A DNA stretch of 64,000 nt from NCBI GenBank assembly GCA_024305745.1, contig JAHRBS010000004.1, positions 1,302,001 through 1,366,000 of the forward strand. The letters are read 5' to 3'. The notes below the pieces were generated by a model, which was given only the letters and a program-made list of their open reading frames with translations, searched no databases and was not told where the DNA came from. Of this stretch, positions 3,722 to 23,098 are shown one piece after another. The position numbers were made by a program, and so were the translations under genes. Position 1 is the stretch's first letter. Each line of letters begins with the position of its first letter. Origin of the DNA: Polyporus tsugae. Taxonomy: Eukaryota; Basidiomycota; Agaricomycetes; Polyporales; Polyporaceae.

Positions 3722-6115
3722 ATGCTCTTACCCTTAGACGTCCTATCCCTTCTTTTTCTTTCCCTCTCCGCATCTCACCTTGCCCCCGTTCCTCAAGCTT
3801 CCGCGGTTCTCATCAATATTACCGTAGACGATACCTTCGGAGACCCGTTTACTGGCAACCAAATAATGTACGAACCCCAAGGAGCATGGCAACTCGGTCA
3901 GTCCTGCACTACCTGCACCCCTCATCCCGACAACTCTCTGGCTTTCAATCGCACCTGGCATCAGTCGACCTTCAACGATGCTGGCCTTCCAGACGCGGAT
4001 CAGCTCCCCACCGCAACATTTTCGTTTGTCGGTGCGTTTCTCCATTCCCGTCTCTGCTCCTCCCGGTACCCACCACGACCCGACCCTTGGCTTATCGTCC
4101 CATTTTAACCCAGGTGTGGCAGTATATGTATTCTGCATTGTTACACATTCCTTCACCTCGCCCTTTGGAAACTCAGATACGAGTTTCCTCATCGACAATG
4201 CTCTCGTCGGTACATTTCAGCAACCCCCAACAGGCGACTCCACCTACTTCTACAACGTGCCGGTATATGTCAATGATTCTCTCTCTCCAGGGCAACACAC
4301 GATCACCATCGTTAATGGCGAAATAAACGGCAACAAGTCCCTCACTTTGTTTGACTACATCGTGTATACGTCAGTCCTTCCCACATGCTGTCTCTCGCCT
4401 CACCTGTCCCACTGATCCGGCACGTCCACAGACGAGTTGATAACTCAACCGCCGACGAACCCCTCCCGTCTCTCACGCCCACCAGTATCTCTACCTCCTC
4501 CCCGAGACCTCCCCCGGCCGCCATGGCTGCAGCAAGTCCCTCCAGTCTCTCGTCTTCAAGACGAACCGTTATCATTGCCGTGGTCGCATCTATAGCTGGA
4601 GTCTTGGGCCTTATCACAATCATTGCTGCTATCATATACTTCGGGCGACGGCGAGCCAAGGCGAACGCGCCCGCTGGCTCTCAAAACGGTGTTATTGCCT
4701 CGGACGCCGTCCCTATAGACCAAGAGGACCCGAGCACTAGCGGTTGGGTGGAGGGAACATGGGCAGGAGGCGATGACGCCGGGCAAACTGGGGCACGACG
4801 TACCCTTTCAAACGGGCGGAGGAAACGCGGGCCTTCAAACGCGTCTGCGTCAAACGTGTCCCTCCCCAACACGCCCTCGACGAGGAGTCTCAACAAGCCT
4901 CTCCCCCCGGTGAGCAACATCCAGACCCGTTCACCGTACTCCCGCGTGGAGCCCGTGAGCCCGTCCTCGTCGTTCGGGAACCTCGGGAGCGCGCCCCCAG
5001 ACTCGGCCACCTTCTTCACGCCCCCAGGCCCTATCCCCCCAATGCCCCCAATGCCCGCAGCACCGCCGGCGCGACCACAGCGTCCCCCCACAGAAAGCGA
5101 CACCTTCCTCGACATGGGCCAGTCGTTCATCGATACGAGCGTCTCCACTCGCCCAAGCCACCCCTTCGCGACGGCACAAGCGTACACTCCCTCATCATCC
5201 TCCATCTTCACGCGCCAGCGCTCCGACACCAACCCGTCTGTCACCATCCCGCCCCCCAGCGCGTCCTCGAGCGCGCTCGCCGCCGCGACGCGCGGGTACG
5301 CGTATGCCACCGCGGCCAGCCCCATGCGCAAGCGCTCGGACTCGGACCTTGAGCGAGAGAAGCGGCGGCAGCAACAACAACAAACCTACGCCCGCACGAA
5401 CCCCCCTTCGCGGCAGCGTTCCGGCTCGGACCTCTCCAACTCCGCCCACGCCCGCGCAGCACCCGCATCGGCAGTGGTAGGGCGGCGACGCGCAGGGTCC
5501 GACCTCGAGGTGAACTACCCTCGCGGTGGCACGGCCGTGAACCCGCTCGCGTCCACATCCATACCGACCCAGGCAGTAGTGACACGGCAGCGGTCGGGCT
5601 CTGACCTGGAGAAGGGCGACTATGCGTCGGCGCACTCGGGGATGCAGTCGCCCAACACGTTCGTATCGACGCTGCCGTCGACCGTGACGACGCCGACGAG
5701 CATGACGATGCTCATGCCGAAGGCGCAGCGAAATCCGGGCTCTCAAGGGCAGGGTAAGGGGCAGGGGCAGGCGAAGGAGACGGAGAGAGAGAGGGAGAAG
5801 GACAAGGAGAAGGCGTCGACCGCGCGCAGGAAAGTGGACCCGATCGACCCCTCGCTGCAGCCATCGCGCGATCCCCCACCGACGCAAACACATACGCAGA
5901 CGTCGTCGCGCTCCACGTCCCGTGCGCGCGAGCTCGCGACGCACGGGGACGAGCCGGAGCAGCCGCAGAGCGCGAGCTCGAGCCGGAGCGGCCGGCGGGC
6001 AGGTATCCTCATATCCGACCGCGACCGTGACCGCTTCGGCTTTTTGGACGTGCCGCGGGACGCAAGCCTGAGCCTCGACAGCAGGCCGCCGTCGTATCAC
6101 GAGGCCGATCGCTGA
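3722..6115 (+). CDS. Signal-peptide, single-TM surface protein with long Ser-rich cytoplasmic tail
   Basis: Three exons, 3722-4031, 4114-4369 and 4432-6115, join in frame to 749 codons. The N-terminus is a signal peptide (MLLPLDVLSLLFLSLSAS). The ectodomain of about 170 residues carries the pattern NITVDDT, CTTCTPHPD, TWHQST, AVYV, TSFLIDN, HTITIVNG and FDYIVYT, which I know as a common Agaricomycete domain of unknown function. A Ser/Pro-rich stalk follows, then a TM helix (VIIAVVASIAGVLGLITII), the basic stop-transfer FGRRRAK and a cytoplasmic tail of about 480 residues rich in Ser, Pro, Arg and Gln. The tail holds five Arg-rich/SDL-type repeats (see separate entry). Topology suggests a cell-surface sensor or anchor; this is inference, as no catalytic motif is visible. 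A damaged paralog lies about 2.3 kb upstream on the same strand with introns at matching places, so the pair arose by tandem duplication. Confidence 0.82.
5212..5610 (+). repeat. Five degenerate R-x-R-[SA]-[DG]-S-D-L motifs in the cytoplasmic tail
   Basis: Within the tail of the surface protein the motifs are RQRSDTNPS (about 5212), RKRSDSDLE (5329), RQRSGSDLS (5411), RRRAGSDLE (5482) and RQRSGSDLE (5586). Spacing is 24-39 codons. They look like repeated basophilic-kinase phosphosites or docking motifs; that role is inference. Confidence 0.75.
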
Positions 6116-6874: not shown

Positions 6875-7451
6875 CTAATGGGCACGCGCGCGCGAGGTCG
6901 ACCTTGAACGCGCCCGCTTCGACTTCGTATGCTGCCGCTGCTTTTGCGAGGGGCGGCCCCACGCGAAGTTATCGTCGTCGAGCATCTCAGCCTGTGTCCA
7001 TGCAAGGTTCTGCGGTCAGCGCCCAGTGTGGCCAGCAATGGCAACAGATGATGATGGGGGCGCGGTGTGATCGAGGAAGGGAGCAATACTCACTGGTTGA
7101 GACGAAGAAGCGTTTGACGTGGGTTCGGCGGGCAGTGTCGGCGGTGGGTACATTGAAGGCTGTTATGGGGAGAATGGAGTTGGAATGAAGGTGTGAGAAC
7201 GATGGATGGGCAAGGAGCGCGTGGACGCCGTGCAGAGGCTCACCAGAGAGATAATGTAGGACTCGCCAGACTCGAGTGAGTCGATGGAGGTCCGTCGGTC
7301 GGGACCGCTGGACCGCTGGAAACATCGTACGGATGACAAGCGGGGTTCCAAGAGACGCAGACATAAACACCGTCAGCCATCTGTTTCACCGAGGGGTGCA
7401 ATAGGATGTACGCACTCTGGAGCTCCGGGACAGGAACAGTTTCGAGAGCAT
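6875..7451 (-). CDS. Small AW-motif protein, copy A (96 aa)
   Basis: Four exons on the minus strand, 7451-7416, 7315-7244, 7159-7094 and 6991-6875, give 96 codons. Every intron starts GTGCGT or GTGAG, ends CAG, and lies in phase 0. Exon 1 encodes MLSKLFLSRSSR. Exon 2 is Ser/Arg-rich (DRRTSIDSLESGESYIISL). Exon 3 is Pro/Ser-rich. Exon 4 begins AEMLDDDNFAWGRPS and ends in a very basic Arg/Lys/Ser tail. No signal peptide or TM is seen. The acidic AEMLDDDNxAW core followed by a basic tail is shared with copies at 12511 and 22651, which is the main support for the model. The basic tail could bind nucleic acid or act as a nuclear localisation signal, but no family is recognised and function is unknown. 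A TATATAG on the minus strand at 7720-7714 lies 265 bases upstream of the ATG. Confidence 0.72.
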
Positions 7452-9257
7452 GGAGTAGATGGTGGTGGTGGTGGTGGTGGTGATGTGGTTTGGGTCGTGT
7501 GGTCGGCGATAATCTGCTGTGATCGATGTCGAAGCTGAGCTGCTGGCTGTGAAGGAGTAGGTAGGAGTACGCAGATGGTGAGGTGAGGACGGGGTAGGCT
7601 CGGAGCGTCGGGTAGGTTCCGGCGACGGTGACGGGAACTGGGTATGGTTAATGCTTGCGAATAAGGATGGTAGGCTGATGGGCAACGAGCCCATAGCAGC
7701 TCCAGCCCACAAGCTATATACCTAAGGATCCGCCACATGACGCCCGCTAAAACAGCACGAGAAGGGCTGAGAAGGGCAGCCATTGGACGCAATTGGCCAA
7801 TGGGGACATCATGCAACTTGCCCTATCAGGGGTGCACAACGACATGAGCGGTCTAGCTGCTGACGGAGACTCAACAAGCGTATACCGTGACCAGATTGCG
7901 AGCAGGGCGTCGTCCGAGTGTCGCCCATGTCAACGTAACGCGGAACAGTGAGCCGACGCCACCTCGCTACCCAGCGGCGGGGAGAGAGAGCAGGTGACCG
8001 GGTCAGCCTCTGACATACTTGGATAATCTGACAGGTTGGGACAGCTGGCAATAGTGCGGGGCAGTGACGGATGCGGGGTCGGCAAGTGGTTGATGGCGGA
8101 TAAACGGAGGGCAGCTGCGAGCGTTGTTCCGTACAGTAGGCCGAGCGAGCCAGTGAGCTATTGTGGTTTTCGCCCGCGTTTAGGTGTCCATTCCCAGCGT
8201 CTGCGTATGGCCGGATGTCCGACCAAGAGGCGCGGGGGCGGCATCCGTCCACACTCGTGATTGGCTTACTAGTGACCTGCGTACCTGACATATGTAGGCA
8301 TTGGAAAAGAAGAAGACCGGTTGGACATGTGTCAGGCTCACCGGAGGTCATGCACTGCGCCTTTGTGGCCTTCTCGTGGTGGGAAGCCTGCGAGAAGCTG
8401 GATGCTATGAGAAAACCAAGGTCAAACGCTCACTCTGGAAGCTTCGTAGCCCCTTCGTTAGCTGAAGGAGTACCGCATATGAAAAGAGTTGCACGAGGAT
8501 CGTGGCTTTCAATAGCCTGGCCATCGTTCATGCTTTCATAAATCAGAGAAGCGGGAAGAGGTTCATTATATTCACGGCACGCCAGAAGACAAATAAAAAT
8601 CGGCGGCGACAGAATGGGGTGCCCGGATGCCACGAATGCACGACGTATCCGTATGCCAGACGAAGGGGAATATTGAAGAGATGACAGGGCTGTACAGTAA
8701 CAGCGAGGGACGCACCGAGTCACGTGGGGGGTTGAAGCTGAAGGATGGGTAAGGCGACGGGTGGAAAAGCTAGCAGGCTCCGGATCTCGGCTTGTCACGA
8801 ACTATCGTGAGCTGCCCAGCCAATCTGCGAGCTGCTGCGCCCATGCATGAGGGCGTTTCGACTCCAGCTTTACCAGAGTCGATAGGCGTCCACCCCTGCC
8901 ACATTGAGATGGCGGGCTAGTGAGGTGTGCCTGATGTTGGGCGGCCTTGTGCGTTGACGGTGGTGCTATAGCGCTGGTTGGAGGCTCCAGTGAGGGCGAC
9001 ATCCAATAGAACCATGGCGCCTCTTCCTTTCCGGGCTTGCAAGGTTCGCCGTACCGCACGATGATAGGGGAGCGGCGCTGTGCGCGGGATAGTCTGAGAG
9101 GTATACGGGGCGTGAGAGTGTCAGGCGGCGTACCAAAGTCTGTGAGCGGCGACGAGCTTTGGGTACCCTCCGTGTTTTCTCCCGCCGCGATAGTCTGTCC
9201 CATTCACTGTGTGTCCCAGATGTCAGACAACAAACCTGTACAGGATTGGCGCAGCGC
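7452..9257. other. Intergenic stretch; promoter of AW copy A, otherwise no gene seen
   Basis: The first 300 bases hold the CAC repeat and a TATA-like element for the divergently placed small gene. From about 7800 to 9250 only short or unlinked open frames occur on both strands, none with a recognisable motif. Confidence 0.4.
7461..7481 (+). repeat. (GGT)n trinucleotide repeat in the 5' leader of AW-motif copy A
   Basis: Seven GGT units on the plus strand (CAC-type on the coding strand) sit just 10 bases upstream of the copy A start codon. It is a microsatellite in the likely 5' untranslated region. Confidence 0.85.
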
Positions 9258-10895
9258 TTACATTGACTCGAAGAAAGCATGCGCCTTAATTTGTGACCAG
9301 GTCGCTCGCTTAAGGGGGTCCTTCTGCAACATCTACGGTAAAGTCAGTGAATCGCCGTATAACTAAATTGTCAGGACGATCCTACCATTTTGAGCAAGCT
9401 TCTTGCATCCGCATCCTCGATGTTGTCAAGCTCCAACGGAAGCATGACCGTCCTCTGCATGACCTCGATCGTCTCCTGGGGTGGCGCAATACCAAAAGGC
9501 AACTAGAAAGCAGCGTGTTCAGGCAGTGATCGGCGCTCGAGAAGGCCGGTATACGTACTTCTCCAGACAACAGTCGGTAGAGGACGACTCCGGCGGACCA
9601 GATGTCAACCTCGTACGAGTGTCTATCGCAATAGATTTCGGGAGCGACGTAGCCGGTAGTTCCAAACCAGCCTTCGGTCTTATCCCCGAACGGCCGAGGA
9701 GCTGAAGTGTCCCGCGGACCTGCGGACCAGGGTAATTCGTGCTGTGGGCAACCAAAGTCCCTGGCAAGGCCGAAGTCGGCGAGGATGGTATGGTAGTCGT
9801 TGTCGACGAGGATGTTGGCGGGCTTGACATCCCGGTGGACTATGCGCATGACATGCAAGGACTCGAGGGCGATGACCAACTCCGCCATGAGAGAACGCGC
9901 CAGAACGACATCGCACTTCTTCATGAGGTAGGTGGTGAGGTCTCCTCTAGGTGCGTAATCCTATGTCCAAAGTCATCAGCGGAAGCGAGCATCACGGAGT
10001 GTACAATTCACCATCAAGAGGTAGAAGTGTTTTGTGTCTTCAAAGCTGCCCCTGAATTCGGTGAAAAACGGATTCCCAGACAGCCTCTTCAGCATGTGCT
10101 GCTCGGCGTAGATGGCGAGACGATCGTCCCCCTTGAAGCTCTTCTTCTTGATGGCCTTCAAGACGAGTGTCTCGCCGCTGACAGTATCTTCGACTAGTAC
10201 CACCACCCCGCCGGAGCCATGCCCAAGAAGCTTAATCTGCTTGAAGTCGTTCGCATGGAGTATTCGACCAGGTGTGGCGTGTGGCCGTGTTAGATCCGTG
10301 GAGTGGTTGTCGATATGTCGATCGTTGCGAGACGTCGCAGATAGGACAGGGGTAGAGGAGGAGCGCTGGAAAGCCTCGGAGAAGGGAAAGGTCTTCTTTT
10401 CCCTCGACCTGCCGTAAAGTGCGGTTCTGCTCTTGGCGTTCACGTTCACAGGACGGTTGGTAGCTCGAGTCGAGACAACCTCTAGGAGCGAAAGCCTAGT
10501 CGTCGTCTCATGTCTTGACCGAGGAAAGGTGTTGGCGCATTTCGTGGCCGCAGATGAACATGTCGCATCGCAAAGCTTCTCAATCTTGCAAGTAAGCTGA
10601 TAAATCTCAGTGCGGTGGCATCAATGGACAATCTCGATTCCCAACGCACGATATTTCCTTGTGAATCCAAGTCCATGGAGACGTGAACATCTTCGACTGC
10701 GACGGGGTCTTCTGGGACGAGGAAGAGGTCGAATGGCTAGGCGATTGTAAGCTCGAGATGAAGACGGTGAACCATACTTGCACCAGCTCACTGGAAGCAC
10801 GCGTATCCCAGACAGCCTGGTGACAAATTTCTGATATGGAATATAGTCAGTACACATCCAGGACGATGGAGGGGACCACTACCTGTCGAGGACAT
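9258..10895 (-). CDS. Serine/threonine protein kinase with fungal N-terminal domain (442 aa)
   Basis: Seven exons: 10895-10883, 10830-10778, 10736-10520, 10463-10012, 9960-9559, 9502-9386 and 9332-9258. All phases agree and give 442 codons. Residues 1 to about 95 form an acidic/hydrophobic N-terminal segment (PFDLFLVPEDPVAVEDVHV, then an amphipathic SLLARLRSFAMRHVHLR) that I do not recognise. A low-complexity linker follows. The kinase domain starts near residue 150: glycine loop GHGSGG, VAIK-type lysine in VLKAI, catalytic loop IVHRDVKPANIL, DFGLARDF, activation loop GTTGYVAPEI, and a C-lobe ending KDPLKRATWSQIKAHAFF. All catalytic residues are present, so it should be active. The HRDVKPAN form and the GTxGYVAPE activation loop resemble AGC/CAMK kinases; no specific ortholog is claimed. 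Start was chosen because the upstream reading frame is closed and the first intron fixes the frame. Confidence 0.85.
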
Positions 10896-12510
10896 TGATA
10901 ACCAAGACCGACCTCAGTAGACTTCTGCCAAAGACGTTTGCCGAGAGCGAGGAACTCCTCGAAAATCATGGAGGAGGAGTCACTGAGACGCGATGCAGGG
11001 GATGAATAGACGGAAGGTAGGGGCTACGGTTTCCAAAATTTATATCCTGTGGGCATGGGGCTGACGTTGCAAGGAACTCGTGTTGCTCGAGCGGCCAGCC
11101 CATTAGAATGACGACTGGGTGATCTTCGAGCGATCGGCAAGTCAACCTTCAGGATAAACCTTGGAAATGAACCTGGATAAGCGATACATCTGTAGTTTTA
11201 GTGCACAACAATGCAATCCAGATCAGAGGGTATATGTACCTTGATGCAAACATTGCGGGTAGAATGGCCCTTTCTTGAACCTGCCATCTTGCAAGGTGCC
11301 GTCGATGGCGGATGTTCGCTGTTTCTCTCGTCTGGATCTCTCTTATGTTTATCGATAGGCATGTACGGCATTTACCAAAGTCCCAAAGTCTGAAACAAAA
11401 ATATTGACATCGCTGGACGACGAAGCATGTGGTTGGGAGCGAGGAGGGATCGGCGCCAAGTGTTGAGATCAGGCGTCTGTTCAAGCGATGCGATTTCCGT
11501 CCGGAAAAGGTAAGTAACGCAGGTTCTCCCGGTGTGGTTCAACCACCCGAACTTAAGCTTGGATGTGTTGCGGCAATATAGGTATAGGAGAAGAAATTTT
11601 TGAATAGCAATAACAGTACATGGCGTATCTGCCAGCCCTGTCCATGACCAAACGCTGGAGAGAGACGGTACTAAGCACACCGAGATCAGCGGGTTCACGG
11701 TAGCTTTCCCAAAACATAGATGCACAACACATCTGTACGTCTACGGCAAGATAACCCTGCCGAGGGGGAGTTAGACCCATGCCATGTCCTTGGGGCGCCT
11801 TGGCGTCCATAGGGTCTAACTACGCCAATGCTGCGGTATGTGGAAAGCTTTCACCATTCTGTGCCTGACCATAGTGCGGGGTGTGATCACTTTTGCTGTT
11901 TCCCACCACTCACGCCGAGAACTGCTTAGGTTTGGGAAATTTACCGGTGCGTGCGTATTACGATGCCGGCGCGGAACAGGTTTCATTCTCGTCTCATCTC
12001 TCCAACGACAGAACTTAGTAGATTCGCGATCGGCCCCATGTAGATTCTTCAACTTTACATAGTCTACGCAGCACATTTAGTCAAGAACGTCATGCGGAGT
12101 CGTCAAAGAGCGGAGATGAGGCCTGTGCAAAGAAATTGTGGGAATAGAAGAAGTTACCGGATACCGTGGGAGGAAGCGTCAATCCAAGGGAGTGCGGGGC
12201 AAAGAAGCTTGCGCAGCACAGATGACACAAGAGCATCGCCCTCGGGAGCATTGTAAAAAACTCTGGACGACATGCGAAAAAGTGTGCCGATTACCCCACT
12301 AGAGCTAAAGAAAGACTCGGGGGTATGACGTGCCCAGAGAGAAGTGAACCGCAGCAACCTTGGCATAGCCTTCGAGCCATTCAGCAGAACACATATAAGG
12401 ATGTTCGACGTCAGGACTCGGACTGACCAGACCGTAGAACCCAAGCACCTGAACTCTTCGAACAAGTCGACAACCGTCGCTTCCATACCCCGAACCACCT
12501 CCCATCCACC
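10896..12510. other. Divergent promoter region of kinase and AW copy C; no gene seen
   Basis: The region lies between two divergently transcribed genes. A TATAAG at 12394-12399 is 112 bases before the start of AW copy C. Open frames between 11149 and 12498 are short and show no domain or splice-linked chain. Confidence 0.4.
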
Positions 12511-13162
12511 ATGTACTCAGCATCCAGCATCAACTTGCCAGTCCCTGACTATCGGCCCACCGTGAGCTACCGCGCGTTTGACGCCTTCATATCGAACAAG
12601 ACTCACCGCCAGACCTCTAGAGCATCCAACATCCTGACAACTGTCGCTCGAAGTTGAAGAAATTCATCCGCCGGTTTGGTCAGCACTCCGCAGAGCACAG
12701 GGTAAGTGCCAACGATTCAACTCTGCACTACCATTTCAATGGCCCACTGAATGACATCGATGATAGGACATAGCTCACCTACAGGACTCCCGGGCCGCGA
12801 ATAGTTCCGTCAGCCTCGCAAAGAGCTTATCATCCTATGTAAGTTTCTGCCCTCCACACTCCGCATGACGGCGCACATGACTGAGAGATCGATCATAGGC
12901 GGCCGAAACGGCCGACAACGATGATATGGCTTGGAGCCGACCGTCTAGCAGGGCCACAACATCAAGGCCATCCCCTAGAGCGAAGCGCCACCGACTGAAG
13001 GCCGCCTCCCCGCAGGTATGATCACAACGAAGCCATTGTCTCATGACGCTGACGAACAATTTGAAGGACCAAGCCGAGATGCTTGACGACGAGAACTCCG
13101 CTTGGGCGCGACCATCCACGCACGACGACCGTCACGCGGGCTGGAGACCCTCTCATGCGTAG
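12511..13162 (+). CDS. Small AW-motif protein, copy C with two AW motifs (138 aa)
   Basis: Five exons, 12511-12561, 12621-12701, 12767-12838, 12899-13015 and 13067-13162, all in phase 0, give 138 codons. Exon 2 encodes a basic amphipathic stretch (CRSKLKKFIRRFGQHS). Exon 4 carries AAETADNDDMAWSRPSS and a basic tail. Exon 5 carries DQAEMLDDENSAWARPST and ends after a short tail. The two exons therefore encode two copies of the same acidic-Ala-Trp motif, and exon 4 has the same length (117 bases) as the last exon of copy A. Exons 2 and 3 (81 and 72 bases) match the lengths of exons 2 and 3 in copy B. No signal peptide, TM or catalytic motif is seen. Function is unknown. The first two exons show no clear sequence similarity to the other copies, so the 5' model is less certain than the 3' half. 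Confidence 0.68.
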
Positions 13163-13767
13163 TCCTTTCTAGCGCACATTAGCATTAGGACGGTCATCTT
13201 AGGAGCTCACTTAGTATCCGTTCATTGTGTGACATTGCCGACACGATTAGGACTCCAGAATACACTACGCTTGGACATTAGCTTCATTCCTTTCCTAATC
13301 ACGCACAGGTACTTACTAATCCGACACTGCTCGCTACTTTGGACTGGTAATAAAACTTGAAGCCACCTAAACCGATAGAAGTGGACGGTGGACAGCCGCC
13401 AGGGAGATGGCCTGAGATCGAACGAGTTCACACCAGACGGCACGAAGATAAGGTGAGATTCGCTGGGCTGCGGAGGGCTACTAGTAGGTTGGATGCGGTG
13501 CGCCAATAGGACAAAAGTGTGTCGTCAGTAGGGTAAAGTACTGGATATGAGGCGTAAAACGCACGCTTTGTTCGCCGTTCATGCCATTTGCATCCCAATA
13601 AAGCAAACAGATCGTGGGATCTTGAGGAACAGGAATGCCCCGACATTGCATACAAAATCCAGCTGAGATGATAGCATATGACCACAGATACTATCGTACA
13701 TAAATCCGCCAATGATCGGAGAGTGCAGCACCCAATCACAAACATCAGGAGTCCGCCAGGAAATAGC
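13163..13767. other. Convergent 3' region, no gene seen
   Basis: This separates the stop codons of AW copy C (plus) and the thiolase (minus). It contains only 3' flanks and short open frames. Confidence 0.45.
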
Positions 13768-15809
13768 TTACAGTTTTGCAAGCTGCAGGATATATGGGGA
13801 GTTCTTCTGTGCCTTGACTTTGTCGACGTCCTGGCGGGTGATTGGCCGGTACTCGTGACCATGGTTATAGCCAAGCCTGCCGCAGGATCGGCAGAAATAG
13901 GCACACCGGTAATCAGCCCCACATCCACGGGTAAATGAACGATAAGAATGGCCGCACCTCTTCCGCCCATCTTCGCCTCCTTCTTTGTAGAACTCAGGCC
14001 GGCGCAGCAGGCTGCACACGACTGCACCCCCCAGACCGATGTTATGAATAAGTCCGTACTTGCCACGCTTGTCTGGGACGTCGAAGAGGCCGGGTGCCTG
14101 CATCGGTCCAGCCCCTGCGATACGTGTTAGCGCATATAAGGTCCATACCAGCCGGAGCCCGTCTTACATTGGCGGAGTTGCACTGGTTGGTGCCATCCTA
14201 TCAGCGCAGGGGTGGAAGTGTGCATGAATGGAGGACGTACTTGCAATGTAAAAGTGCATGCCGAGACCCGTTGCTCCTAGCGGGTGACCCTTCGCCTCCA
14301 GTCCGCCGCTTGGGTTGACCACGTACTTGCCACCGTACTAGACCGTCGTGAGCTACTGACCGATTCTCAGGGGACAGGTCGAGACGCACCGTGTTATCTC
14401 CCCGCTCAACCATCTTGTGCGCCTGCCCATGCTCGCAGAGACCGAGCGCATCGTAAGTGAGAAGCTACGGAAAGCTAGTTAACATCCCTGAATACATGAT
14501 AAAGTGATTGACAATACATACCTCGTTCGCAGCGAAGCAGTCGTGGAGCTCAACAACGCCGACCTGATCCCGGCCCTCCCCTTCCTTGAAGCCCGCCTGA
14601 GCAAAGACCTCGTCGGCGCAGTTCTTGGACATAGTGTAACCGACGACGTTCATCGCACTCCTGCTTTCGAAAGTGGTTGGGTCATCAGTCGTCAGAGCCT
14701 GAGCAACAATCTCGATGGCTTGGTTCTCCAGGCTATGCTTGTGGACGAAGTCTTCGGACGCAACGATGCAACAAGCACCACCATCCTGGAAACTCAGGTA
14801 AGGAGACGTGCGAGTAAATAACTACGAACGTACGGAGGTGGGGCTGCACATGAACTTGGTCAACTGCTTCGTAATCTTGGGTGCAGCAAGGACTTGCTCA
14901 ACAGACCAGCCATCGCGGAACTGGGAATATGGGTTGTTGACAGAATGCTTGTGGTTTTTGCTCGCTGCGAGCGCATAACGTAGTGAGTAATTGACATCGG
15001 CCTTCATACATCCAATCTCACCAATCTGTGCAAGGTGATTGATGTTTCCGCCAAACTTGTCAAAGTACTCCTGACTGCCATTCGCAAACATCCGAGGAGC
15101 ACCTGGACCGTAGTTTTCTCCAGGGCTCAGCGTCTCCTCGAGTTGGATCGAAGCGGCCCCGAACACAGCCGTAGGTGGCTCTCTGTCTGGGAAGTTTGAG
15201 GCAAGGCTGCCGCGAGCCATGCGCTCGAACCCAAGAGCGAGCACGCAGTCGTACAAACCAGCCCTGACAAGAGTGTTTGCGTTGTACAATGCTGTGCTGC
15301 CGGTAGAACAGTTGTTATTCACGTTGGTGATTGGGATTCCGGTCATCCCGAGCTGGTACAATGCCCTCTGGAACGCTCGTCAGCATTTCGCCTCGCGTAC
15401 GAACACCAAAAGCATGCTTACCTGACCAGCAGTGGAGTCTCCATAGCAATAACCGACGAAGGCGGCCTGAACTTCGTCATAGGTGATGCCTATGTATGCG
15501 TCAGATAATTGCAACGCGAGGGCCCTGGAGTACGCTCATGTTTGACATACCAGCATCGAGGAGGGCCTTCGTCCCAGCTTCCAGACCCATCTGAAGTGTC
15601 GCCACATCAACATTTCATGCACCAGCATGCTGTCCTGGGAGCTGCGTGCTGCTCACCTCTTCCGTCGTCCTCAAGCCTCGAGGCTAGCATCAAGAGCATT
15701 CTACTTGAACACACGCAACGCTTAGACGAGCGTGCGGACATACCTTGGTAAACGCCGCGCACCCAACCCCCACAATGAAAGTCCTCTGTCCCTTCAAGTT
15801 CGATGACAT
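13768..15809 (-). CDS. SCP-x type thiolase with peroxisomal C-terminus (483 aa)
   Basis: Eleven exons: 15809-15744, 15683-15657, 15590-15551, 15489-15422, 15367-14834, 14785-14522, 14464-14390, 14337-14241, 14182-14168, 14114-13958 and 13876-13768. They total 1452 bases with consistent phases. The protein is the thiolase half of sterol-carrier-protein-x: nucleophile Cys in [22 protein letters not shown], and [14 protein letters not shown] with the catalytic His near the C-terminus. These enzymes cleave 3-ketoacyl-CoA, including branched chains, in peroxisomes. The last residues are LAKL, so the terminal AKL fits a PTS1 import signal. There is no SCP2 lipid-transfer domain. Two exons are tiny: 27 bases (PRGLRTTEE) and 15 bases (completing MQLRQW). 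The intron at 13877-13957 is 81 bases and in frame, so retention would insert 27 residues without a shift. It is divergent from LIP2 over 317 bases. Confidence 0.9.
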
Positions 15810-16126
15810 CTTGGAGCTGTAGCCAGTTTCAAAGGTTGCGGTGCGGATTCAGAACAACGAGATCATTCGTCATCAGCATGGTACATCGCATATAGTTCGC
15901 TTCACGGCTCAGTGAGAAGGCCGGAGACATTGGTGCATGATTCTCACCGCAGTCTGAGTAACTTCGCATAGAGGCTGAGCGCCCTTTGGTCACGAGTCAC
16001 GCCACGACGACGACGACAGGCGCCTCAAGAGTGTCACCACTCTGTCCTCCGCTGGTCTTCCCCAAGGTCTTCCCCTAGTCAGGTCTCGCAAATCCTACCC
16101 AGATCCTGCTCCCGCCGATCTTCGAC
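15810..16126. promoter_or_regulatory. Shared divergent promoter of thiolase and LIP2
   Basis: A 317-base gap lies between the two start codons of divergently transcribed genes. No clear TATA box is visible; CT-rich tracts precede the LIP2 start. Shared regulation is inferred from arrangement only. Confidence 0.5.
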
Positions 16127-16927
16127 ATGAGCCTTCCGCCTATATTCTATTACTGCTTCAAAACTCCTTTGCCTTACACGAAAGCCTTTTCGCTTCAGGA
16201 GCGCATCCATGCCCACCAGCTACTCACTCGGAAGACATCCCATAATCACCGAGACTACCTCCTCTTGCTCGAGCATCGGCCCGTGTACACTTTCGGAAGG
16301 CGACAGCTCGAGTCGTCTGAGGAGATCACGTCCGAAGCCACTCGTCTTACAGGTCTCGGCGCGGACTGCGTCTCGACGAAGCGTGGCGGCGAGACGACCT
16401 ACCATGGACCCGGCCAAGTCGTCGGATACCCCCTCTTAGATCTCGGCCGCACATCTCCACCCATGGGCATCCGTGAATACATCTGCAGGCTACAAAAGAC
16501 GCTCGAAGCACACCTACTAGAGGCGCATGGCATTCAGCACACTCCCAGCGACCACACGGGAGTGTTCCTCGATCCCCACACGAAGGTCGCGAGCATTGGC
16601 GTACAAGTCCGACACAGGCTCACGACGCATGGCTTCGCCATGAACATCACTGACGAGCCCCTAGCCTGGTTCGACAAGGTGGTCGCTTGCGGCCTCACGG
16701 ATGTCAAGGCCGGCAGCATCGCGAAAATTTCGAGCACCGGAGGAAGCCCGAGTTCGATTTACGTCGCTGCTGAGCTGCCGGGGCTCATTGCTAGGTTCGG
16801 ACGGATAACGGGGCGGGAGTTGGTCGAATTAGATGTCTCTGCGCGTGGGGAGGTCGAGGAAGCAATCAAAGCTACTGAGCAGGATGCAGTGGAGATGGGT
16901 CCTTGGCCTCGTATACCAGTTCCTTGA
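16127..16927 (+). CDS. LIP2: Octanoyl (lipoyl) transferase, LipB family (266 aa)
   Basis: A single exon of 266 codons. The enzyme moves octanoate from acyl carrier protein to lipoyl domains of mitochondrial 2-oxoacid dehydrogenases and glycine cleavage H protein, the first step of lipoate synthesis. Diagnostic motifs are present: RGGETTYHGPGQVVGYPLLDL, the Lys in TKVASIGVQVRH, GFAMNI, and the catalytic Cys in VVACGLTDVKAGSIAK. Length fits the family. The ATG follows a pyrimidine-rich leader and no earlier in-frame Met exists nearby. The N-terminus has little positive charge, so a mitochondrial presequence is not obvious although the pathway is mitochondrial. Confidence 0.93.
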   Translation: MSLPPIFYYCFKTPLPYTKAFSLQERIHAHQLLTRKTSHNHRDYLLLLEHRPVYTFGRRQLESSEEITSEATRLTGLGADCVSTKRGGETTYHGPGQVVGYPLLDLGRTSPPMGIREYICRLQKTLEAHLLEAHGIQHTPSDHTGVFLDPHTKVASIGVQVRHRLTTHGFAMNITDEPLAWFDKVVACGLTDVKAGSIAKISSTGGSPSSIYVAAELPGLIARFGRITGRELVELDVSARGEVEEAIKATEQDAVEMGPWPRIPVP

Positions 16928-18375
16928 CCACGCATGCCATGCGCTGGTAATGGACTGAGAGGCCAAACTTTCATAGTGCGTATTTGCGAGCATTACCAGC
17001 TTCACCGGCGGTAAATCCTACCTTGCGTTCATCTGCTAAATGATCCTTGTTTTTGCTGTCAAGTTGCCTGCCTAATACCGCACTGTCACTTATAAGTGCT
17101 ACAGCAGGTTGATACAACCCCTTCGAAACCACAGCAAAGGTTCGACCCGGTGCTGCGAACGTCGCGCGTCCTTGCATACAGCAGTACATATCCGACGTGC
17201 CGGGACGCGCGACGTCCTGCAGGCGGGTGCCCAGCTTTCGTGGATACGAGAGACCCTCAGGCTCCAATCAGGCTCTGCTCGCATGTGAACAGATGATCGC
17301 GGCCGTTCCCCTGGGTCTTGCGACCTCTCTGGGTGTGCCAACTAAATTTACTCTCCTACGGCGGTCCGTATCTCTCTCCCGCCATCACCTGGTTGAGGCG
17401 GCCGCCAGGCAGCCCAGAGGGGGCTGGAGGCAAACACTGCCCGCGGCCGCGTAATACTAACACCGCCAGCTCAGCTGTATGATGTTAAAGCCATCAGCGT
17501 TCACAGGTCTCGCGACACAGCAAATAAATCAATACATAATATAACATCTCCACAGGCAGGAGAGGTTTGGATGTGCACACGATTTCCAGCCCTTCTTCGG
17601 TGTTGGGACAGTGCTCGGGTAAGGCTTGGGACCAAAGTTGATTTCCTTACGAACGAAATACCCTTAGGCTTTTCCTGCGCAGGAATACCCATCGAGGAAC
17701 ACTCCCCCATAGAAGTTTACAATGCAGTAGCCGTTTCCCAAGCCTACTCGCGTCAGAGGAAACGCTGATTGTGTATATTTTGGACGTGCATCATTGTCTT
17801 TCCTTTGATCTTTAAGAGTGCGTCTCGTATTCTACCCGCTAGACCCTCAGGCTGTGTGGTTTCAGACCGTCCGCGTGTCGCCGGGGACGGGAGCTTCGCT
17901 TTTACTCAGGCGTCAGCTAGCGTGGCGTATCAATCAAGCGCTTGCGGGGAAACAGTTGCCGTCGGTCAAAGCCACTCCGACTTGTGCGTTTTGACGTTGG
18001 AGTTGGAACAGAGTTCTGCCGTCTCAACGAGACGCCTTGTATCGCACATGTCGCATGGGTTTCCCCACTCACTGCTGCGAGGTCCCCACGTACTGCAATG
18101 TCAAGTGGATAGCCATTGATCGTTGTTAAGTGCGCAAAGCCCTTTGACTGTGCGCGATACGCCAAACCGCCGACAATTCGTCACAATGGATGATCCGTCT
18201 TTTCGTCGGCCTGTGCGTCCGCGTCATGGCCGAGCGCTGGGACATCACAAAAGATGATCATTCGGATACACTCGTATATAAGGAGGGATGAACTGACTGT
18301 GTTTCTTCAGATCCTGTGGATTTCACCCCGACGCTCACTCACGTTTCCCTCTCTTCCCTTTATCTTATTCTCGTC
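16928..18375. other. 1.4 kb intergenic stretch, promoter of GH16 gene at its end
   Basis: No coding exon is recognised between LIP2 and the GH16 gene. Open frames are short and unlinked. The final 100 bases contain the core promoter of the GH16 gene. Confidence 0.45.
18275..18282 (+). promoter_or_regulatory. TATA box of GH16 gene
   Basis: TATATAAG lies 94 bases upstream of the ATG at 18376 and is followed by a CT-rich leader, the usual layout for a highly expressed basidiomycete secreted-enzyme gene. Confidence 0.7.
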
Positions 18376-19778
18376 ATGCGTTCTACAGCTGTGCTGTTCG
18401 CTGTCTCTGCCCTCGTTTCTTCTGCTCTGGGAGTTACTTACCCCAAGAAGGATTCCTTTGTCGGCAAGGATTTCTTGACCGGCTTCAGCCATGAAGCGAT
18501 CGCTGACCCCACCCACGGTCGGGTGTAAGTACAGGTCTTGCTTCGCTACGCGGTTCATTGCTCACTGAAATCTTCCACTAGAAACTATGTCGACCAAGCC
18601 ACCGCGCTCCAGACCAACCTCACGTTTGCGACGGATGACACGTTTGTCATGCGCGCAGATGACTTCAACACCCTCACCCCTACCGGCCCTGGACGTAACT
18701 CTGTCCGTATCAAGAGTAACAACCAGTATGGCGCGAACCATGTCTCTGTCTTCGACATCCGCCACATGCCACAAGGTTGCGGTACCTGGCCCGCGGCCTG
18801 GGAAGTCAACGAGGCGACCTGGCCCAACACCGGCGAGGTCGATATTCTCGAGGGCACGAACGACATCGAGCCCAACCAGTCGACGCTTCACACCAGCGCC
18901 AACTGCGCACAGCCCGGCGGCCTGACGATGAACGGGTAAGTGTACCTTTTGCACAGTATTTGAGTTTCTACTGCGCCCGTACTGATGGCGCTCGCTCGTG
19001 CAATAGAAAAGCTGTCTCGAACAACTGCGACGTCGCTGCCAACGGTAATGCTGGCTGTGGTGTCCAGGCCACCGCTCCTACGAGCTACGGCAAGTCGTTC
19101 AACGCGGCCGGCGGAGGGTTCTATGCGATGGAGCGCACGAGCACGTTCATCAAGGTCTGGTTCTGGAGCAGGAACGACCCCACGGTCCCTACGGATGTCA
19201 AGACTGCCGGTGCTTCTGTCAACACCGACACATGGGTGAGTAGCCGAATTCCGTATCCAGCACTGCGGACCAGCAGCGCAACGTATTAGACTCGCGCCTT
19301 CGTCCCCTGCGCCGCGGTCGCAACCACTGCCAGTGGCGGGGATGAAACTCGGGGGGATTGACGCGCTCTGTTCCGTGTTACTCCCTGCGGGTTGCTGATA
19401 TCACACGTTATCTCCACAGGGTACCCCCACCGCGCTCTTCGTCAACAACCAGTGCGACATCCCCAGCCACTTCGGCGCGCACAACATCATCATCAACTTG
19501 ACGTTCTGTAAGCCTCTACGACACCCCTTTATTGGATCATAAGTGATGCTGACCGTTGCCCTGCTAGGCGGCGACTGGGCTGGCATCCCCCAGTTCTTCA
19601 ACACCCTCGGTGGCTGCCCAGGTGACTGCAACAGTGCGTTATCTCTCCATCTTGCTTCTGGAGATGGGATACTGATCTGGGACCACTCATTGTAATAGCC
19701 TTCGTCAACCAGAACCCCAAGGCGTTCTCCGACGCGTTCTGGGACATCGCTGGTGTTCACGTCTACGAGTCGGCGTAA
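18376..19778 (+). CDS. Secreted GH16 endo-beta-1,3(4)-glucanase-like protein (321 aa)
   Basis: Six exons, 18376-18524, 18582-18935, 19007-19235, 19420-19507, 19568-19633 and 19699-19778, total 966 bases. The product starts with a signal peptide (MRSTAVLFAVSALVSSALG). The GH16 catalytic motif is GEVDILEGTND, giving the E-x-D-x-x-E nucleophile and acid/base pair, preceded by GTWPAAW and followed by conserved NNCDVAANGNAGCG and CGDWAG segments. Paired Cys residues suggest disulphides. It probably hydrolyses beta-1,3/1,6 or mixed-link glucans in the cell wall or medium. No carbohydrate-binding module or GPI/TM anchor is seen. The intron at 19236-19419 is unusually long (184 bases) for this window. 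Confidence 0.92.
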
Positions 19779-20366
19779 GCTGCACGAACAAAGTGGGTGT
19801 TTTGCATCCCCATATTCAGACACGTCAGAGGCTGACGACACATTTCAACTACTAGTACTGTATAAACGCTGTGTCAAGGCCGTTAGAGAACTCAAGTATT
19901 CATACCACAGTCAGATGGCTGGACTTCCATCTGGCATGATGTACACACCCCGTTATACCTGTACGACAATACATGAGAGCTCGGGCTCCGTCTTGATGCT
20001 GAGAAACATCTCCACGGGTGCTTCAAACCTCTGCACGTTCTAGTATCGATACAGGGACTGGAACTCGGCTAACCCATACCCCTTGAAGTCCACTTCCATT
20101 GCATTCGGCCACCAATAGGCTTGTGATCAGGATGGCTTAGACTGTCTTTCCGAGAGGGAGCTTGCTTCAGACGCTAAAGAGCTTCTTGAAGGGGCTGACT
20201 GAAGTACAGTAACATGTGTCTATTGGATGAACCAAACATAGTCAAACATGGAGGGCATCCAGTGGAGAACAAGCGCCCAGACTACTTCAAGTCCAGACTC
20301 CACAGTCCGTTCTTCATCCTAACACTATATGCACTCACACTTAGATCTGACCACCACACCGCACCA
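19779..20366. other. Intergenic stretch, no gene seen
   Basis: It holds the 3' flank of the GH16 gene and the promoter of the reductase gene. A TATATG lies near 20327, about 40 bases before the chosen start at 20367. Confidence 0.45.
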
Positions 20367-21032
20367 ATGCATATCTTGATCCTTGGCGGCACTGGGCCCT
20401 GCGGAATCCAGCTGATCCAGCAATCGTTGGAAATGAACCACACGGTCGTCATATACGCTCGATCCCCCCAGAAACTCCCCGCTGACATCTCCTCCAACCC
20501 CTCCGTCACCCTCGTGGAAGGGGAGCTCACCGATGCGGAGAAGCTCGCGTCCGCTATGCAAGGTGTTCACGCCGTCCTCTCTGCCCTGGGACCCGCGGTG
20601 AAGAACGGACCCTTGCATCCCAACAACACCCCGCTCGCCCACGCGTACGCGCTCATCATAGAGGCGATGAAGGGACAGAGCGTCAAGCGTCTCATCGCGC
20701 TGGGCACGCCCAGCATGAAGGACGAGCACGACAAGTTCAGTCTGATCATGTCTGGGCTGGTCTTGGGCGTCGCGACGCTCGCCCATAACGCATACAAGGA
20801 CGTAGTCGCTATCGGAGAGACTATCCGAGCGGCCGACCCCCACGAGCTCGTGTGGACCATCGCGCGAGTGCCTATCCTGACTGGCTACGAGGATAGGTCC
20901 GTCATCGCTGGATACGTCGGAGACGGGAAGGTCGGGACTAGACTCGCTCGCCCAGCATTCGCGGCGTTCGTGCTGGGAGAGCTGGAGCAGAACGAGTGGT
21001 GTCATAAGGCACCTCTCATTTCTTCGCCATAG
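20367..21032 (+). CDS. NAD(P)-binding, NmrA/atypical SDR-like protein (221 aa)
   Basis: Single exon, 221 codons. The N-terminal Rossmann motif is HILILGGTGPCGIQLIQQSL with the GxxGxxG dinucleotide loop, followed by VVIYARSP (ribose/phosphate binding) and VHAVLSALGP. This is the layout of NAD(P)-binding atypical short-chain dehydrogenases such as NmrA/HSCARG-type or flavin-reductase-like proteins. No Tyr-x-x-x-Lys catalytic pair stands out, so it may be a redox sensor or an atypical reductase. The frame is open for 51 more codons upstream (from 20214), but the Rossmann strand starts exactly at this ATG (ACCAATG), so the shorter form is preferred. Confidence 0.82.
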   Translation: MHILILGGTGPCGIQLIQQSLEMNHTVVIYARSPQKLPADISSNPSVTLVEGELTDAEKLASAMQGVHAVLSALGPAVKNGPLHPNNTPLAHAYALIIEAMKGQSVKRLIALGTPSMKDEHDKFSLIMSGLVLGVATLAHNAYKDVVAIGETIRAADPHELVWTIARVPILTGYEDRSVIAGYVGDGKVGTRLARPAFAAFVLGELEQNEWCHKAPLISSP

Positions 21033-22650
21033 TAAGTTGTCTTGTCATGTGTTATCCGACAACGCAAAAGGGAGCTGACTTCGGCACAGGACTGAACGGA
21101 GCTGATATGGACTCACACCGGGCGAGGTTTTGTGCGTATTTTGCACACGGATGCGTCGGAATAGGCTAACTCACCGTGATGGATGCGCAGCTGCAGATAT
21201 CTGACAAGGTTAACTCTCGGACCTTTTCTTCGACGTATTAATGAAGTTCAACACAAGTGATCTGCAGATACTCGACGGAGGAAGGGCATACGGACGGGTG
21301 ACACCGCAGCTCCGGCTTCGTATCCGAGTCTGTTCTTCAAGATCCGATGCCATCTTTCCAGTGGTTAGAATCTGTTTCGTTCATTTTGCGTGGCCCTCAC
21401 GGATGGAATCACGGAGGTTGTTGATCGATACACCTTATATTGCCTCCTCCTGTGTGCTCTATCCGTGTTCAAGGACTCGTCTTCTGGCATTCCCACCATT
21501 TCCTTCCCGTTCCCGCCCATGAATGCATGAAGCCCTGAGGACGTCGAATGATGACCAAGTTGCCTGCCAGCCCAACAGCGCTTCAGTTATCCGAGTCTAT
21601 GCGCAACGGTGCGTCTGCGCGGGTAATTCACCGCGGCGCACGTTCACGACGCCGCTCCCCATTTGCATTCTCCGAATCAGGCTTACAGGCGGTGAGAACT
21701 CTCCCGTTGTCCCCAATTCATTCAGTAGTTCCTGGGAGAAGACTCATACACTTGCTGCAGGGGCGTACTCGTCATTCAGACGATCGGTCTTCCCATGCAA
21801 GCTTCCACTTCCATGGGTCTGGACGGATCCCGCCTCGACATCTTGGCCCGCGTGCTCTTCCGCTCCACGAAGCTCGTTCAAGAAGCCTTCTGGAGTCCTC
21901 ACCGCAACGCCATGACCGCCCCGCTCGCGGCAAGTGCGACTCGGAGTCGGCCAGCTCGGCCACGTCAAGATAAGGCCGTCACCAGAAAGGCAAGGACAAG
22001 GAAGTCGAAGACAGGAGCAAATGAATGCACTGTGGCCGCTATTGTCTAATTTGCAGTGAAACACGTGGACACTTCTCGGGGGTAGAGTGCACGAAGGGCC
22101 CGGGCCCCCGTCATGCAGTGTTAGTAGAATCACTAGACGAACGCCCCGACGTCCCCGTCTTGCGGCCCGCAGGTCCAGTCCCTGGTCGTCGGCTCTCCGT
22201 ACTCCCGCTCCCATGGTAATAGTGGGGGCATACAGTCGACGGGGGGTGTGTACTGTACGTACTTACCGTGTTTTCCAGCATGAGAGTCTCTGAACTGTCA
22301 CATGTATATGTCACATTGTGTGCTTGTGAATGTTCCGATGCAGGAGAGTAAGGCTTGCCAAAACGCTATGACCTTAGCTGACCAACTGCGCTACAATTAC
22401 TGGTGCCCTGAGAGCACTTCTACGAACCGTGATGTAAGATGGTACATCGCGAAGTTCGGAATGCTGGAAGGTCTGTTGAAAGCGGGAAGCGTTTCATGGC
22501 CCTTTGGCCGATGATGAGTCCAAACGATCGGAATATGACATGTATGATTGGAGGCAAGGTATAGATATACGGCACTGATTGTACACTGGAGAAAGGTCCC
22601 AACGCGCTGACGATGCTGGAATGTTGGCCAAAGAACGAATACAATCGGGC
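21033..22650. other. 1.6 kb intergenic stretch, no gene recognised
   Basis: Several overlapping open frames of 60-156 codons occur at 21500-22220 on both strands but none shows a domain or convincing splice chain. A small spliced gene cannot be excluded. Confidence 0.35.
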
Positions 22651-23098
22651 TTAAGATCGCCTTGACGCTTTTTTGGGCTTCACCCACGCCATGTTATCAT
22701 CGTCCAGCATTTCCGCCTAAAGCGCGCCAAACATTCGGTGACCTGTTGACACATGGAAAAGTGATGCGGCGAGTACTCACATATCCTCCCCCGTTTGAGC
22801 TGGAGGTTCCCGACCCTGTCGGGGCTTGTTTTTGTGCAGGCGCCAGACCGGCCTACAGAGGGCCGATTATGAGCGACCACTTTACGTTATCGCGCGTAAC
22901 GTGAAACTTACGAATTGCACGTATGAAATCGGCGATGGGTCGCTCATCGTGGATCCGGAGGACCGTCGGGAGCTGGCTGAGCTCGAAGACGCCTAACGAC
23001 CACATGTCGATAAATCGAACAACTCGACGCGCCAAAAGATGACAACGCACCTGGGACGACGTTGACGTCGACGACTTGAACAGCGACAGGCGAGGCAT
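22651..23098 (-). CDS. Small AW-motif protein, copy B (88 aa)
   Basis: Four exons on the minus strand, 23098-23051, 22992-22912, 22852-22781 and 22716-22651, all in phase 0, give 88 codons. Exon 1 encodes MPRLSLFKSSTSTSSQ. Exon 2 is Ser-rich with RRSSGSTMSDPSPISYVQF. Exon 3 is Gly/Ser/Pro-rich. Exon 4 is AEMLDDDNMAWVKPKK and a short basic end. The last exon matches copy A from its first codon onward (AEMLDDDN-x-AW), and exon 2 shares the RR[ST]S...SY[IV] pattern with copy A. No signal peptide, TM or known domain. Minus-strand TATAAG at 23287-23282 is 184 bases upstream. Function unknown; the short acidic-Trp motif may be a protein-binding site (inference). Confidence 0.72.

Follow-up and report, generated by a model that had tools for sequence, protein, structure and literature searches.

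The window analysed here, a stretch of 64,000 nucleotides of Polyporus tsugae (contig JAHRBS010000004.1, positions 1,302,001 to 1,366,000), raises the question whether three very small spliced genes, proposed in an initial annotation on account of one shared short peptide, are real and related, and what their products could do. According to the sequence comparisons described below, the genes, designated copies A, B and C, are real coding genes forming a three-member local family, and they are linked paralogues in a so far undescribed family of proteins from mushroom-forming fungi. Individual proteins of this family are already public as hypothetical proteins. New are the recognition of the family, its motif (AW motif), the variation in motif repeats and the old linkage.

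All three genes could be built where the initial annotation had placed them, with four or five exons. In these models all ten introns are in phase 0 and all ten have GT-AG ends. Copy A (7451-6875, minus strand) has four exons, 7451-7416, 7315-7244, 7159-7094 and 7009-6875 or 6991-6875. Its two in-frame acceptors, 7009 and 6991 (minus), are 18 bases apart and give proteins of 102 and 96 amino acids, respectively. The Ganoderma sinense orthologue P0003 runs straight into AEMLEDD and thus matches the short form. Hence, the last exon probably starts at 6991, and the motif AEMLDDDNFAW (6959..6991, minus) then opens it, as was supposed initially. Use of acceptor 7009 would add NLAWTQ, an AW peptide directly ahead of the motif; the dual acceptors could be a case of alternative splicing. 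The protein searches gave P0008 of Ganoderma leucocontextum as a further orthologue of copy A. This record has a poly-Thr stretch just ahead of the start shared with copy A, and a run of CCA/CAC triplets lies in what is presumably the 5' leader (about 7480-7461, minus) of copy A. Thus, the N-terminal extension of P0008 may be a mis-called start.

Copy B (12511-13162, plus strand) consists of five exons, 12511-12561, 12621-12701, 12785-12838, 12899-13015 and 13067-13162, and encodes 132 amino acids; its G. leucocontextum orthologue P0005 is 92% identical. The motif AEMLDDENSAW (13073..13105, plus) lies two codons inside exon 5. Exon 2 (12621..12701) encodes the basic amphipathic segment SKLKKFIRRFG, and exon 4 (12899..13015) carries a second, diverged AW motif, AETADNDDMAWSRPSSR. 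This diverged copy (AETADNDDMAWSRP) had been overlooked in the initial annotation. A similar peptide was found in most B-type relatives and is absent from two Trametes rows, P0043 and P0044. Copy C (23098-22651, minus strand) has four exons, 23098-23051, 22992-22912, 22852-22781 and 22716-22651, with AEMLDDDNMAW at an exon start (22684..22716, minus). Its orthologue in G. sinense, P0001, was found with an expectation value (E) of 3.7e-28 in a single-sequence search. With 88 amino acids copy C agrees with the lower end of the size range of 88 to 138 residues given initially, but the largest protein, that of copy B, falls short of the upper end. A TATA[AT][AG] box is located within 300 bases upstream of all three genes (-269, -117 and -189) versus 11.8% of random stretches, the pattern having been picked after looking.

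The exact core AEMLDD[DE]NxAW is common to A, B and C, as had been reported for them. A degenerate DNA pattern for AEMLDD[DE]N matched these three genes and nothing else in the 43,241,137 bases of the genome, and its reversed control gave no match; the initial judgement that chance is unlikely was thereby borne out, the motif going far beyond chance. A longer pattern with up to three mismatches led to three extra places, reading DYMLDADNSAW, ELLEDEDCVW and ELMDDDNRAG. The first of these (L010, C1:4226828-4226857 of the genome) lies in an open stretch, with Ser/Pro/Lys-rich sequence after it. It matches fairly well, but AE and a basic RP/KP tail right after W are missing; it is possibly a diverged relative, or a chance match. 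With the loosest pattern 23 matches were obtained, compared to one in the reversed control. Three were A, B and C, eight were one repeated sequence, and none of the remaining 12, all of which were read, contained AEML. Protein queries gave only A, B, C and exon 4 of copy B, so no further member was found in the genome by queries that scored the best candidates only and that very short or diverged exons could escape.

In other fungi, an alignment search among 7852 candidates yielded 63 proteins at E up to 10, including 51 at E < 1e-3. Organisms are named in 52 rows, covering 35 species, and are not given in the other 11; below 1e-3 there are 47 named rows from 31 species. Since homologues at this level exist in 31 named species, the family does not lack homologues, and the conserved motif looked for in other species was found. 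All 35 named species are, as we take from their names, mushroom-forming fungi, and Polyporales account for most of the relatives. The G. sinense orthologue of copy A was found at E 1e-32 in a single-sequence search. Matches outside Polyporales are weaker, with 6e-5 for Agaricus (A. bisporus) and 2.8e-4 for Suillus (S. luteus). Above 1e-3 are Dentipellis (4.4e-3), Leucocoprinus (0.14) and Sanghuangporus (2.7), as well as Phanerochaete sordida (5.7e-3), which belongs to Polyporales. When a profile of the core was tested, all 19 rows kept out of it scored at least 23.3 bits versus 14.9 bits for the best of 200,000 residue shuffles. These rows had been preselected by shared words from 5.8 billion sequences, and therefore Dentipellis, Leucocoprinus and Sanghuangporus are regarded as leads. 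The sensitivity of the protein search was limited: P0004 contains AEMLDDDNMAW like copy C, yet it was missed by the copy C search. Hence, absence from the list of relatives does not mean absence from a genome.

All 52 named relatives are labelled hypothetical or uncharacterised, and a precomputed Pfam domain occurs in no row. Relatives of A and C are annotated as hypothetical proteins in G. sinense, and in Lentinus tigrinus and Daedaleopsis nitida this applies to all of A, B and C. Because relatives of all three types are already annotated, the expectation that automatic annotation would miss such genes does not hold for the family in general.

For the conservation of the motif, 71 copies in 66 proteins (63 from the database and three from the window) were counted. 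The preferred residues occurred in the order A (70 of 71), E (71), M (64), L (58), D/E (70), D/E (65), D/E (71), N (65), M/L/F (62), A (69), W (71), G (55), R/K (51) and P (65). As the rule for accepting a copy fixed E and W, limited the residue before W and asked for at least five of seven preferred residues at positions 2-8, these counts are partly given by construction. When 40 of the 66 were aligned with MAFFT, without this rule, A, E and W were invariant and M, D, N, A, G and P reached at least 90%, at a mean column identity of 32%. The near-invariant family consensus is AEML[DE][DE][DE]N[M/L/F/S]AW(G)xP. The core AE[ML]L[DE][DE][DE]NxAW stands near the C-terminus in A, B and C and was scored in 66 of 66 proteins, in part through the rule. 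When the 11 codons of the core were compared pairwise between A, B and C, four to seven differences were seen at third positions, none or one at first and none or one at second positions. The synonymous proportion (pS) was 0.56-1.03 and the non-synonymous proportion (pN) 0.07-0.13, at about five synonymous sites per pair. Judged by these residues and codons, the motif core is under constraint. The number of motifs varies among the relatives: P0029 has two, and P0046 of Agaricus has three spaced related peptides, one of them reading AQW.

Three paralogue types were distinguished by strings assembled by eye from the alignments. The A type reads MAPLSFTKLFSSRSS...SYVISLPS...AEMLDDDNFAWGRPSRKQ, the C type MSRLSLFKSS...RRSSMTSDSS..SYVQFPGLAP...YAEMLDDDNMAWGKPKKSRR and the B type SKLRRLIRRL...MAWSRPSSR...AEMLDDENSAWARPS. 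A tree was built from 55 rows (three from the window and 52 named) and 100 columns; 15 of its 52 inner branches were starred. The B group of nine was starred (96/85); the C group of 20 had 88/90 and the A group of 15 had 92/64. The A and C groups are moderately supported, and the placement of the distant relatives seems unsure. The three types are present in several genera and form separate tree groups, with starred support for the B group only. At least two relatives were found in 14 species, and in 13 of them the rows are on equally long contigs, taken to be one contig. Only Dichomitus squalens departs from this; its rows bear different strain tags. Close locus numbers are frequent (GSI_07069/07075; A0H81_00335/00336/00357; GY45DRAFT_1366306/1366312; BXZ73DRAFT_102615/102626). 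Because paralogues share a contig in nearly all these species and often have close locus numbers, the linked cluster looks old. It does not look like a recent local duplication, since the types recur in several genera and group separately. Of the local duplication suggested initially, the three-member local family is retained.

The proteins are composed of a Ser/Arg-rich body, predicted to be disordered, followed by the motif and a basic tail; copy B adds the second AW exon and the basic amphipathic helix. The net charge of the tail is positive in all 66 proteins (median +5). RRx[ST] sites occur in 30 of 66 proteins compared with a shuffle mean of 10.6, as raw counts in which related proteins are counted separately. 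AlphaFold2 was applied to the database orthologues P0001 (C-type) and P0005 (B-type), with alignments of 32 mostly A- or C-type rows and of nine B-type or near rows, respectively. The predicted template modelling score (pTM) was 0.18 for both, and the mean predicted local distance difference test (pLDDT) 62.8 and 56.3. The sole element obtained was a low-confidence helix at residues 24-39 of P0005, which corresponds to the basic amphipathic segment. For the segment in exon 2 of copy B the hydrophobic moment was reached by none of 300 shuffles. In an amphipathic-helix test of 20 of the 66 proteins, chosen by us, the segment beat the shuffles in all nine B-group rows (0 to 6 of 300 reached the value) and also in the relatives from Agaricus, with 3 of 300, and Sanghuangporus, with 1 of 300. 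Maxima of hydropathy over 15 residues were 0.43-0.61 in A, B and C, so that no hydrophobic segment is present. In general, the three proteins are probably soluble and intrinsically disordered, as far as these predictions go.

No known family was recognised, in agreement with the initial annotation. In Pfam, A and C had no match and B had one weak match (E 0.097, 13 bits versus a cut-off of 31.1). Scans of 40 and 10 members gave scattered weak matches only, the best being E 0.0018 for one member with an unstructured-linker model. By sequence no PDB entry matched below 1e-3: a single match at E 1.2 was obtained for A and none for B with the limit at E 10, and a profile of 40 members including A and C found none up to that limit either. 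Five motif strings and seven locus tags were found in no paper among the open-licence PMC full texts, supplements lying outside this search.

Some known motifs were compared directly. The Atg8-binding LC3-interacting region (LIR) is defined as [WFY]xx[LIV]; it was rejected, because the third residue after W is P in 65 of the 71 cores and none of them has L, I or V there. The MLLE-binding PAM2 motif is L-N-x-x-A-x-x-F-x-P. In the AW motif the residue after L is D/E in 70 of 71 copies and T in one, and the residue at +4 is N or D instead of A, so PAM2 was rejected as well; the spacing of seven between L and W is the sole feature recalling PAM2w.

What could such proteins do? We see about an even chance that they are small disordered adaptors or inhibitors which dock one conserved partner through the motif, with an avidity that varies with motif number. 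A near-invariant peptide of about 13 residues next to a free body without predicted fold points to a docking peptide selected by a single partner. Most likely, the motif AEML[DE][DE][DE]N[M/L/F/S]AW(G)xP would fold upon binding this partner. The Ser/Arg-rich body would act as a tether open to phosphorylation, and the basic tail might strengthen binding or direct the protein into the nucleus or onto acidic surfaces. The number of motifs would set the avidity, with a single motif in A and C, a pair in B and up to three related peptides in Agaricus. Since the motif exons have phase-0 boundaries, their duplication could add a docking site with the frame kept, and copy B suggests such a case.

Several points weigh against docking by a disordered adaptor. 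Part of the low confidence of AlphaFold2 comes from shallow alignments, of 32 and 9 rows. Because the motif alone formed no helix in the models of P0001 and P0005 and its helical moment is low (0.16-0.41), folding upon binding is a conjecture. The other nine rows tested for the amphipathic segment (three A, two C, Wolfiporia, Suillus, Dentipellis and one metagenome row) had no standout helix, with 42 to 207 of 300 shuffles reaching the value; as A and C rows are among them, membrane tethering is not a family trait. Furthermore, hydrophobic stretches above 1.2 occur in six of the 66, the highest value being 2.73 for P0031. These stretches are perhaps due to wrong gene models; because of them solubility may not hold family-wide. 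Finally, short conserved peptides can also be modification, cleavage or degradation signals.

This last point leads to a different role: the peptide could mark short-lived regulators for turnover or modification, as a degron or kinase docking site, instead of being an effector surface. A short conserved peptide in a Ser-rich protein with frequent R-R-x-S/T sites (30 of 66 members) would suit it, as would regulated expression from the TATA-like boxes (3 of 3 genes versus 11.8% at random). Nevertheless, the peptide is not known to fit a degron consensus, and the spacing of the D-box of the anaphase-promoting complex/cyclosome (RxxLxxxxN) is wrong, so we consider such a signal unlikely. A comparable, low probability is assigned to an acidic-aromatic transactivation peptide of small nuclear coactivators or corepressors, with the basic tail as nuclear localisation signal. 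The acidic run between M/L and W, the tail charge in 66 of 66 proteins and the missing predicted fold are all consistent with it. Activation peptides, however, usually conserve composition and not sequence, while the AW motif is near-invariant in position and residue identity, and neither a DNA-binding domain nor a Pfam match accompanies it. The amphipathic segment of the B group and of the Agaricus and Sanghuangporus relatives would be explained by an adaptor at a membrane surface, whose basic N-terminal helix would insert into an acidic membrane while its AW peptide brings in a partner there, e.g. at the septum or hyphal tip. As the other nine tested rows show nothing notable, this is improbable to much the same degree.

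Far less can be said for a secreted precursor, either of a ribosomal peptide or of a mating pheromone, with the repeated motif as released core. The small size and a repeated short motif near the C-terminus are features of this kind. But the supposed core is conserved and not variable, A, B and C have no hydrophobic signal (judged from their hydropathy maxima of 0.43-0.61), and the Cys at -4 of a C-terminal CaaX pheromone precursor was found in none of the 66 proteins. Both forms were rejected, and we regard a precursor as very improbable. That the exons are imagined and the motif is chance or non-coding has to be considered as the gene models are known here from sequence alone; given three genome matches against none in the control, annotated relatives down to E 1e-32 and the synonymous excess in the core, the probability of this is negligible, and the homologues refute it.

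Docking of one conserved partner by small disordered proteins is thus preferred. More tentatively, it could be extended to a motif-receptor system, in which one mushroom-specific conserved domain reads AEMLDDDNxAWG and three old, linked, disordered ligands compete for it, differing in motif number and anchor. This extension is possible, though well short of probable. If true, the competing ligands would act as a multivalent switch that regulates the development of hyphae or fruiting bodies. With a motif of about 13 residues nearly unchanged across 31 named species (E < 1e-3), a direct bait for the partner is available, e.g. AEMLDDDNMAWGKPKK. Effects of motif number could be followed in a natural series, from the linked paralogues, which have one or two copies, to a relative in which three related peptides occur. 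Domain libraries easily pass over small disordered proteins, as happened with the AW family.

Between A, B and C the window contains open frames matching a kinase, a thiolase, a lipoyl ligase-type protein and an NmrA-like protein; beyond copy C there are open frames matching Atp11 and a family 49 glycosyltransferase. Two adjoining open stretches on the plus strand, 340-1534 and 3713-6115, have segments similar by eye (NTTIDDTSGDLLTGATILYEP and NITVDDTFGDPFTGNQIMYEP) and are perhaps tandem paralogues. The second stretch is followed by a transmembrane-like part and then a long tail repeating RQRSGSDLE-like strings, and its long open reading frame had no Pfam match at 0.01. Elsewhere in the genome, the 21-base match of the loosest pattern is identical at eight places (C3:10979, C6:7880, C8:4657, C13:11748, C14:1059778, C16:10024, C16:2896051 and C16:2918977), and EAEPEDEEDAAWVELAQRLQTIN is present in the six loci fetched (L018, L022, L026, L027, L030 and L031). 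Five of the eight places are less than 12 kilobases (kb) from a contig start and two are less than 27 kb from the end of C16 (2,922,500 bases). This repeated sequence resembles a subtelomeric gene and seems to have no relation to the AW genes.

Among known proteins, GSI_07069 and GSI_07075 of G. sinense have the same architecture and motif as A and C, respectively, and LXA43DRAFT_1088607 and LXA43DRAFT_250829 of G. leucocontextum those of B and A. They belong to the same family, which is unnamed in the records. Short disordered proteins acting via a short linear motif are a general kind. The AW peptide fits no motif class that could be named; the proteins resemble this kind in small size, predicted disorder and one near-invariant, sometimes repeated peptide. 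Many conserved genes of mushroom-forming fungi have no known function according to two articles (PMC10949477, PMC8893723). The first of them counts 158 conserved developmental orthogroups of unknown function; the second names the septal pore cap proteins SPC14 and SPC33. The first article also describes Snowball (snb1), a family conserved in mushrooms but unannotated, for which a knockout phenotype is reported; its product SNB1 is predicted to span the membrane seven times and contains DUF6533 (PMC10949477). In contrast to SNB1 as described there, the window proteins comprise 88-132 amino acids and have no hydrophobic segment. As a conserved family of unknown function in mushroom-forming fungi, Snowball is the nearest precedent in kind for the AW family.

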